From Nitriliruptoraceae bacterium (lineage in GTDB: Bacteria; Actinomycetota; Nitriliruptoria; Nitriliruptorales; Nitriliruptoraceae), in the NCBI GenBank assembly GCA_007130695.1, contig SLRZ01000173.1:1-54887 (forward strand): 54,887 bases of DNA, read 5' to 3'. Shown here in pieces: positions 18,917-21,124 of this stretch. The first letter of the stretch is position 1; each line of letters opens with the position of its first letter. Made by a program: the position numbers and the translations under genes. The notes under the pieces were generated by a model. It saw only the letters and a program-made list of their open reading frames with translations. It searched no databases and was not told where the DNA came from.

Positions 18917-18968
18917 CCGCCCCGCCCGGTGGGCCATGACCCGCCGGCCCCACGCAGGTGCCGGCCGG

Positions 18969-18974
18969 TACACT
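18969..18974 (+). promoter_or_regulatory. Candidate -10 hexamer upstream of phoH
   Basis: TACACT lies 41 nt upstream of the proposed phoH start in an otherwise GC-rich 99-nt gap. No convincing -35 is visible. Confidence 0.3.
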
Positions 18975-19015
18975 GTCGACCCGTCTGTACCCGGTTCAGG
19001 AGCCACAGCCACCCC

Positions 19016-21124
19016 TTGGCGAGCACGTCCGCTTCCTCGACGCCCGCGTCGTCCGCCGAGGTCACCTCCGTCAAGGTGCTGGTCCCGGGCGAGCACGCGA
19101 TGGTCTCCCTGCTGGGGCCCGGCGACGAACTGCTCCGCCTGGTGGAGAACGCCTTCTCGGCCACCATTCACGTCCGGGGCAACGAGATCACCATCTCGGG
19201 GTCGCCGACGGAGTCGCAGCAGGTCGCCGGACTGTTCGGTGAACTGGTCACGCTGCTCGAGCGCGGCCAGCACCTCGACCGCGCGATGGTCAAGCAGACG
19301 ATCCGCATGACCCGCGCCCGGGAGGAGGAACGGCCCTCCGAGGTGCTCTCCGCGTCGCTGATCACCCACCGCGGGCGCACCATCCGGCCCAAGACCCTGG
19401 GGCAGAAGCGCTACCTCGACGCGCTGCGGGAGAACACGGTCACCTTCGGCATCGGCCCCGCCGGGACCGGCAAGACCTACCTGGCGATGGGCGCGGCCGT
19501 GCAGGCCCTGCGCGCCAAGCAGGTCAACCGCCTGATCCTGACCCGGCCGGCGGTGGAGGCGGGGGAGCGGCTCGGCTTCCTGCCCGGGACCCTGCACGAG
19601 AAGATCGACCCCTACCTCAAGCCGCTGTGGGACGCCCTGCACGACATGATGGAGGCCGAGGAACTCATCGCCCACGTCGACCACGGCACGATCGAGGTCG
19701 CCCCCCTGGCGTACATGCGGGGTCGGGCCCAGCCGGTCAGCGAACCCGTCCTCACACCGGACGGTTGGCGGCCCATCGGCGAGCTCCAGCCGGGTGACGA
19801 GGTGATCGGTTCCGACGGGACACCCACCGAGGTACTGGGGACGTTCCCGCAGGGCGTCAGGGACATCTATCGGGTCCGAAGTCAGGACGGGGCCTCGACA
19901 CGCGCGACCGCTGATCACCTGTGGACGGTCCTCACGAGCTCGGACCGTCGACGGAGCAAGCCGCCGCGGGTGCTCGAAACGCGCGAGATGGTCGGGCGAC
20001 TGCGAGCCGCGCATGCGCATCGCTACGAGCTGCCGCTCGTCACTGCCCCGGTCACCTTCCCCTCGCACGAGGTGCCGATGGACCCGTACGCGCTGGGCCT
20101 CCTGCTCGGCGACGGCTGCCTCACCGGCTCGACGACGCCGTCGTTCGCGACGGGGGATCCCGAGCTGGCTGAGGCCCTCGGCGATGTGCTGGACGGGGTG
20201 ACCGTGCGTCATCGGGCCGGACCCAACTACATCCTGAGCCGCACCGGTGGGGGACGGGGCGGTGTCATCGTCGAGAACCCGGTCACGGGCTGGCTGCGCG
20301 AACTCGGCCTGTGGGGGACCCCGTCGCACACGAAGTTCGTCCCGGAGCCCTACCTCCACAACGATGCGGACGTGCGCATCGCGGTGCTCCAGGGCCTCTT
20401 CGATGCCGACGGCGGGCCCGTGACCCAGCGGGGACGCACCTGCCGCATCCAGTACACGACCACGTCGGAGCAGCTCCGCGACGACGTGATCTACCTCATC
20501 CGTTCACTGGGCGGGGTCGCCTACACACGGGTCCGCAAGGCAGCCGGTCGGGCTCCCGGACGTGCCAACGGTCGTGACGTGAGCTATCGCCACGACGCCC
20601 ACGTCCTCGATGTGCGACTGCCGGCGGGACTCGCCCCGTTCCGGCTCGCCCGGAAGCGCGAGCGCTACGAGCAGCACGGAGGCGGGCGCCCGGCCCGGTT
20701 CATCACGGCGATCGAGCCGGACGGGGCCGAGGAGGCGGTCTGCATCCGCGTCGCGGCGGCGGACTCGCTCTATGTCACCGAGGACTTCGTCGTCACCCAC
20801 AACACGCTCAATGACGCGTTCATCGTGCTCGACGAGGCCCAGAACACCACCGCCGAGCAGATGAAGATGTTCCTGACACGGATCGGGTTCAACTCCAAGG
20901 CGGTGGTCACCGGCGACGTCAGCCAGGTCGACCTGCCCTCCGGCAAGCGCTCGGGGCTGAAGGTCGTGCGCGAGATCCTCGACGGCATCGAGGGGGTCGC
21001 CTTCGCCACGCTGGGCTCGGGCGACGTGGTCCGCCACCACATCGTCCAGCGCATCGTGGAGGCCTACGAGGCCTACGACGAGGCGGCCGAGGCCGAGGCC
21101 GACGCCGACGGGCCCGGCTCGTGA
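19016..21124 (+). CDS. phoH: PhoH-family ATPase interrupted by an intein
   Basis: PhoH-like P-loop ATPase, a cytoplasmic protein linked to RNA metabolism and usually next to ybeY, as here. The precursor is 702 residues; removing a 359-residue intein leaves 343, the normal family length. Walker A GPAGTGKTYLA lies before the insertion and Walker B FIVLDEAQN just after it; the rejoined junction reads YMRGR-TLNDAF, as in uninterrupted PhoH. TTG 19016 is the likely start: AGGAG lies 13 nt upstream, a rather long spacing, and the N-terminus then has a Ser/Thr-rich lead before the family begins. The last 4 nt overlap ybeY (GTGA). Confidence 0.93.
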   Translation: MASTSASSTPASSAEVTSVKVLVPGEHAMVSLLGPGDELLRLVENAFSATIHVRGNEITISGSPTESQQVAGLFGELVTLLERGQHLDRAMVKQTIRMTRAREEERPSEVLSASLITHRGRTIRPKTLGQKRYLDALRENTVTFGIGPAGTGKTYLAMGAAVQALRAKQVNRLILTRPAVEAGERLGFLPGTLHEKIDPYLKPLWDALHDMMEAEELIAHVDHGTIEVAPLAYMRGRAQPVSEPVLTPDGWRPIGELQPGDEVIGSDGTPTEVLGTFPQGVRDIYRVRSQDGASTRATADHLWTVLTSSDRRRSKPPRVLETREMVGRLRAAHAHRYELPLVTAPVTFPSHEVPMDPYALGLLLGDGCLTGSTTPSFATGDPELAEALGDVLDGVTVRHRAGPNYILSRTGGGRGGVIVENPVTGWLRELGLWGTPSHTKFVPEPYLHNDADVRIAVLQGLFDADGGPVTQRGRTCRIQYTTTSEQLRDDVIYLIRSLGGVAYTRVRKAAGRAPGRANGRDVSYRHDAHVLDVRLPAGLAPFRLARKRERYEQHGGGRPARFITAIEPDGAEEAVCIRVAAADSLYVTEDFVVTHNTLNDAFIVLDEAQNTTAEQMKMFLTRIGFNSKAVVTGDVSQVDLPSGKRSGLKVVREILDGIEGVAFATLGSGDVVRHHIVQRIVEAYEAYDEAAEAEADADGPGS
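19727..20803 (+). mobile_element. Class 3 intein with LAGLIDADG homing endonuclease, inserted in PhoH
   Basis: In-frame 359-residue insertion between Walker A and Walker B of PhoH. It begins with Ala (AQPVSEPVLTPDGW), not Cys or Ser, and ends VVTHN followed by Thr+1 of the host. Block B is TADHLW (Thr61, His64, Trp66), block F has Cys339 (VCIRV) and block G has Thr357-His358-Asn359. This Trp-Cys-Thr set defines class 3 inteins, in which the block F Cys makes the first branched ester. Two dodecapeptide motifs, ALGLLLGDG (about 122-130) and LQGLFDADG (221-229), keep their acidic residues, so the homing endonuclease looks intact. The insertion point in PhoH matches the conserved RGR/TLNDAF site near Walker B. 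Confidence 0.93.

Follow-up and report, generated by a model that had tools for sequence, protein, structure and literature searches.

A predicted class 3 intein in a cellular phoH gene of Nitriliruptoraceae and its same-site relatives in bacteria and a viral contig

In a Nitriliruptoraceae bacterium a chromosomal PhoH is split between its Walker A and Walker B motifs by an in-frame insert of 359 residues, which raises the question of what kind of element this is, whether it would still splice and spread, and how it came to lie in this gene. The locus is part of a stretch of 54,887 nucleotides (contig SLRZ01000173.1, positions 1 to 54,887), the whole of which is called the window here. We consider it very likely (a probability of about 0.9) that the insert is a full-length class 3 intein belonging to a PhoH allele, placed between the Arg and Thr of the MRGR/TLND site, with predicted splicing through Cys339 and predicted homing.

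The interrupted gene and the class of its intein

The phoH reading frame has no stop across the insert (Table 1), and the Pfam PhoH profile matches in two stretches, at profile positions 2-117 before the intein and 116-205 after it. The coordinates of the two Walker motifs confirm the placement that the original prediction had given. Around it lie dnaJ, genes for an rsmE-type RNA methyltransferase and a BldD-like regulator, ybeY, a CNNM/CorC gene, and genes for a cytidine deaminase and an Era-like GTPase, and from these neighbours we infer that the interrupted gene is a cellular ybeZ-type phoH rather than a prophage gene. At E 0.01 the intein has a single match in the genome to which the window belongs (G000; 3.3 Mb, 288 contigs, 89.75% complete). 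A second PhoH of this genome, encoded on contig 95, differs in its N-terminal part and carries no intein; by our reading it is a PIN-type PhoH2.

Table 1. Coordinates of the phoH locus and its intein in the window
Feature	Position	Strand	Remarks
phoH precursor ORF	18929..21124	+	731 codons from mechanical GTG start; true start uncertain
N-extein PhoH domain	19382..19726	+	last residues YMRGR
Walker A	19454..19477	+	GPAGTGKT
Intein	19727..20803	+	359 aa, AQPV...VTHN; flanks YMRGR and TLND
His64	19916..19918	+	block B
Trp66	19922..19924	+	block B (W of WCT), two after His64
Endonuclease domain	20042..20668	+	residues about 106-314; boundaries set by analyst
LAGLIDADG motif 1	20090..20116	+	ALGLLLGDG, Asp129
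LAGLIDADG motif 2	20387..20413	+	LQGLFDADG, Asp228
Cys339	20741..20743	+	block F (C of WCT), proposed first nucleophile
Thr357-His358-Asn359	20795..20803	+	block G (T of WCT, penultimate His, terminal Asn)
C-extein PhoH domain	20804..21070	+	opens with Thr+1 (TLND)
Walker B	20819..20842	+	FIVLDEAQ

Class 3 inteins are defined, in passages of PMC3196547 and PMC5222942, by Trp at B:12, Cys at F:4 and Thr at G:5, together with the absence of a first nucleophile. The window intein begins with Ala1 and has the corresponding WCT set in Trp66, Cys339 and Thr357; the block B His (His64), the penultimate His (His358), the terminal Asn (Asn359) and the +1 nucleophile (Thr+1) are also present. These intein residues, with Asp129 and Asp228, occupy the codons named or implied in the original prediction, in an insert with the proposed ends. 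Among solved structures the closest to the splicing part by sequence is the class 3 intein MchDnaB1 (6rix, E 4.8e-8), followed by a gp41-1 variant engineered with WCT (E 1.3e-6) and the class 3 intein MsmDnaBi1 (6bs8, E 1.7e-6). The natural class 1 gp41-1 (6qaz) is weaker (E 8e-5), RecA splicing domains score 0.015 or worse, and the match to PI-SceI runs through the endonuclease region. By sequence the splicing part is thus nearer to class 3 than to class 1 among solved structures; this result and the full signature support the assignment to class 3, and the better alignment to class 1 that the original prediction had named as a counter-argument was not what we found. The best intein-bearing NCBIfam models, DnaB PRK07773 (6e-18) and RecA PRK09519 (9.5e-12), match mostly via the endonuclease region and therefore say little about class.

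An AlphaFold model of the intein (pLDDT 88.5, pTM 0.89) can be superposed on PI-SceI over its full length (Z 26.7, 322 residues). Its splicing part fits the class 3 MsmDnaBi1 at 1.5 A over 123 residues (Z 19.5), but the class 1 Prp8 splicing domain scores close behind (Z 18.3; class 3 AceL NrdHF, 15.2), and the fold therefore does not decide the class of the intein.

According to the published class 3 mechanism, Cys339 would attack the Arg/Ala1 bond after translation, the N-extein would then pass to Thr+1, and cyclisation of Asn359 would release a functional PhoH of the YbeZ type. At the DNA level the LAGLIDADG domain would cut uninterrupted phoH, and repair would copy the intein in.

The endonuclease and the history of the intein in the family

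The intein was found in 8 of 35 family genomes, the window's own included (match at E 1e-20 or better), and in all eight at the same PhoH junction. Comparison with uninterrupted PhoH of relatives, suggested in the original prediction as a check, gave the expected picture: the empty MRGR-TLND site was present in 25 of the 35 genomes and in none of the eight carriers. Two genomes (G020, G030) had neither intein nor uninterrupted site, and a reversed control pattern matched none of the 35.

The window intein matches Pfam LAGLIDADG_3 at 47.3 bits (cut-off 22.5) and has two LAGLIDADG motifs, each with its catalytic-type acid (Asp129, Asp228). Against the same-genus copy G001, dN/dS is 0.11 for the splicing part, 0.19 for the endonuclease and 0.09 for the extein core, and against G008, G006 and G013 the endonuclease gives 0.19-0.35. 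These low values indicate purifying selection on both parts of the intein in the past; pairwise dN/dS is uninformative on present-day activity. The endonuclease had been described as intact-looking, and the two retained Asp residues, the structural model and the low dN/dS support that description.

A whole-intein search showed that both endonuclease acids are kept in four of the eight family carriers (window, G001, G008 and G015). A catalytic-type Asp is lost in the other four: G006 has Asn129, G013 has Ala228, and G012 and G002, whose inteins are shortened to 296 and 303 aa, have lost one acid each. Loss in half of the family carriers fits the homing cycle, a model of spread, decay and loss that is set out, with its limits, in a passage of PMC1654191. 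In a quickly built tree of PhoH from 33 rows of the family (an extra G010 locus, L072, left out; 9 of 35 inner branches open), intein presence needs at least six changes of state, and in three genera a carrier has a sister with an empty site (G015/G003, G006/G018, G012/G033). Such repeated gain or loss, together with decayed endonucleases, would be the usual homing cycle.

Identity to the window intein falls from 84.1% in G001 and 76.6% in G008 to 70.9% in G006, 68.7% in G015 and 66.6% in G013, with extein cores at 88-93%; the two shortened inteins reach 60% (G012) and 58% (G002). Distant hosts give similar figures, 70.2% in Actinomadura (extein 72.2%) and 67.3% in Calidithermus, a member of another phylum (extein 63.9%). 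In the alignments this flat identity across family and distant hosts looks like a shared pool, but the same picture would arise if constraint kept inteins from falling below about 65%.

The alternative that fares best is vertical inheritance from the family ancestor, in which the empty sites are precise losses and the endonuclease is not homing now; we regard it as a serious possibility, at rather less than even odds. Placing the six full-length family inteins in one clade is compatible with the AU test (p 0.263), so that repeated loss alone could explain the patchiness, and separate gains by the family inteins were dropped as a proposal on the same result. The same-genus pair also diverges about as its exteins do at synonymous sites (dS between window and G001 of 0.63 and 0.59 for the intein parts, 0.43 for the extein core). 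Against vertical inheritance, the free tree places the six full-length family inteins in two starred groups, and those of G013, G015 and G006 are no closer to the window's than are the Actinomadura or Calidithermus copies, only G008 and G001 being nearer. Within the preferred reading of a homing class 3 intein, the recent homing that had been thought plausible did not gain support: the nearest copy found is 84% identical and lies in the same genus, and intein and extein have diverged to a similar extent at synonymous sites. Base composition was ruled out as evidence of recent acquisition: GC3 is 0.86 in the window intein against 0.98 in the extein, and the intein has the lower value in every one of the 96 carrier loci, identical copies counted.

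Same-site relatives in bacteria and phages

The rarity implied by the original prediction did not hold, since class 3 PhoH inteins of mycobacteria are published and the allele is widespread in Actinomycetota and found in Thermaceae. When the phylum was sampled evenly, 21 of 396 genomes matched, 17 of them in PhoH at the same junction (G077 is cut by a contig end) and four elsewhere (G157, G193, G232, G313). Three loci from other genomes of the phylum (L035, L046, L050) hold class 3 inteins 41-42% identical to the window's in non-PhoH genes, helicase-like by our reading.

A scan of genome_contigs gave 375 relatives in 489 candidate stretches. Eighty of the 375 were kept, and in all 80 the insertion is at the same PhoH junction, HN/T[LI][NS]D (74 read by script, six from the printout). 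Judged from record names, 77 of the 80 are Actinomycetota; the remaining three are Calidithermus (Thermaceae) and MAGs labelled Maritimibacter and Omnitrophota. The Maritimibacter locus (L099) was rejected as a cross-phylum carrier: its PhoH is Rhodococcus-like (83.6% in the intein and 87.8% in the extein core against R. triatomae), and the label is probably a binning error. In the family of Calidithermus 7 of 50 genomes matched, six of the seven at the PhoH site. Of the named relatives found, the nearest is a MAG of Nitriliruptoraceae (84% identity over the intein), and its intein is identical to that of G001. The host range described may be new to the literature; the kind of insert is already known.

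The intein has matches in 525 of 50,697 phage records; no match reaches 60% identity, and the best of those listed is at 40.2%. The viral_contigs scan gave 214 relatives, of which 80 loci were kept; the C-terminal junction was readable by script in 65 and not in 15. Among the readable junctions one locus, L160, has a PhoH intein at the same junction, 54% identical by tblastn, with all signature residues and both endonuclease acids, and Pfam PhoH matches in two stretches around it. An exact scan of viral_contigs for THN-TLN[D/N]AF found no contig besides that of L160. The viral nature of this contig is taken from IMG/VR and from the phage families present, which include a phosphoesterase, a UvsX-like recombinase and a helicase. 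Among the ORFs searched (sets of 8 and 10) none was recognisable as a capsid or terminase gene. A terminase probe with phrog_2, which we take to be a terminase family number, gave no match on the contig; the same search matched 11 of 14 bacterial controls, so that phrog_2 was probably a poor choice. The PhoH of L160 is short (L160:3563-5281; 572 aa with the intein, 239 without), and GC3 is 0.38 in its intein and 0.65 in its extein.

In the tree the PhoH inteins group in a single clade that excludes the other sampled viral inteins (99* SH-aLRT). A first quick tree had L160 outside all cellular PhoH inteins, and an ancestral phage copy was abandoned when Thermaceae copies moved L160 beside Calidithermus, with which it groups weakly (82/93); the AU test does not reject a position outside the cellular inteins (p 0.296). 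A same-site intein in a phage PhoH makes exchange between phage and cell possible. Of the phage-to-host route put forward in the original prediction, these sequences support a phage-cell link, without a direction.

Delivery from phage to cell, by which phage PhoH genes bearing the allele seed bacterial phoH, seems to us unlikely. In its favour is L160 itself, a same-junction relative lying among phage genes with its signature and both endonuclease acids. Yet its contig is the only one in viral_contigs with the exact junction pattern, its placement is as uncertain as described above, and identities of 54-59% argue against recent transfer to the window's lineage; moreover, the one named-phage record covering at least 80% of the PhoH-plus-intein query, among 25 of 2929 listed, is not PhoH. 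We are similarly doubtful of a broader scheme, in which a single homing allele travels between the phoH genes of phages and bacteria across Actinomycetota and Deinococcota, a phage reservoir keeping the endonuclease selected while cellular copies decay.

Other phages considered as carriers of PhoH inteins were set aside. GX15bay and Eggerthella phage LE2-3 bear the PhoH label but no PhoH domain (Pfam, PHROGs, E 0.001), and ScoobyDoobyDoo gp195, with at least 80% query cover (25 of 2929 records listed), has an intein, but Pfam finds no PhoH domain in it. In the source passages on Marshall, Maynard and Mic1 the intein is in the terminase and PhoH is a separate gene. The proteins QBQ74860.1 and QXJ36684.1 (L077:2029-4851, L078:2719-4338) are labelled PhoH and have no PhoH domain, being other proteins with a class 3 intein. 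The PhoH labels on these phage proteins were probably carried over by intein similarity.

Residue conservation was read from 98 carrier sequences which, less five exact duplicates, gave 93 distinct same-site inteins, the window and phage copies included. Left out of the 93 were the second copies L001, L003, L036, L037 and L080 (L003 by position, the others identical), truncated L017, L135 (same site, missed by the motif search) and five Thermaceae loci. His64, Trp66, Cys339, Thr357, His358 and Asn359 are unchanged in 93 of 93. Acids occupy both endonuclease positions in 86 of 93, a proportion biased upward because the search patterns of the scan lay in the endonuclease motifs. Residue 1 is Ala in 84, Ser in eight and Cys in one, so the proposed lack of a first-residue nucleophile is right for the window intein and too broad for the allele group. 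The whole WCT set is present in the Ser-first inteins (L016, L111, L116, L133, L139, L141, L146, L151) and in the Cys-first one (L148), and L135, outside the 93, is also Ser-first.

Position 61, the Thr of the block B TxxH (window 19907-19909), varies: of the 93 inteins 58 have Cys, 28 Ser and seven Thr, and the window intein has Thr. Speculatively, a Cys here could act as a redox switch by pairing with the catalytic one. A regulatory intein, kept for control of PhoH through conditional splicing (by redox state, for example), is improbable for the window copy. A passage of PMC6195587 describes splicing of the mycobacterial class 3 DnaBi1 as inhibited by a disulfide on the catalytic Cys, but the only cysteines of the window intein are Cys131, Cys239 and Cys339, with Thr at position 61, and the site is empty in 25 of 35 family genomes. 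A splicing-dead insert, or a class 1-like intein merely resembling class 3, is very improbable indeed: the class 3 relative Arth_1007, a pseudogene according to part of PMC3196547, is without Cys F:4 whereas the window intein has every signature residue, the host gene keeps an open frame and conserved sequence on either side, and the first-residue nucleophile for class 1 chemistry is absent.

Meaning of the locus and comparison with known inteins

As a discovery the intein matters little, class 3 PhoH inteins being already in print. Its value is that one family holding intact-looking, decayed and empty alleles, together with a same-site phage copy, makes a test case for the homing cycle, and one that bears on the proposed phage origin of class 3 inteins.

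The nearest known systems are the PhoH inteins of mycobacteria. Those of M. fortuitum (OBK00716) and M. xenopi (EID13626) are class 3 and are aligned in Figure 6a of PMC6195587, as seen in a passage of that paper, and a passage of PMC7360933 reports one intein in PhoH of M. smegmatis and does not give its class; in the open-licence literature we found no title on PhoH inteins beyond mycobacteria. The host protein is the same as in the window, as is the class 3 signature of the M. fortuitum and M. xenopi inteins. Mycobacterial loci from our scan share the MRGR/TLND site and are 62-67% identical to the window intein, but the host lineage of the window differs (Nitriliruptoraceae-like).

The class 3 DnaB inteins MchDnaB1 and MsmDnaBi1 have the Hint fold and the WCT set in common with the window intein but are mini-inteins of 139-145 residues in DnaB, without an endonuclease, and 27-31% identical in structural alignment. 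PI-SceI shares the architecture of Hint plus LAGLIDADG, but lies in yeast VMA1 and uses class 1 chemistry. Mycobacteriophage inteins, class 3 included, are treated in PMC5050341, which does not mention PhoH. Class 3 inteins of actinophages and other viruses lie in helicases, terminases and other proteins, and WCT is present in 29 of 29 aligned non-PhoH relatives (26 viral, three cellular). The 79 other viral loci kept are 30-45% identical to the window intein and have different insertion sites where the junction is readable, and the other viral inteins sampled fall outside the PhoH clade (99* SH-aLRT).
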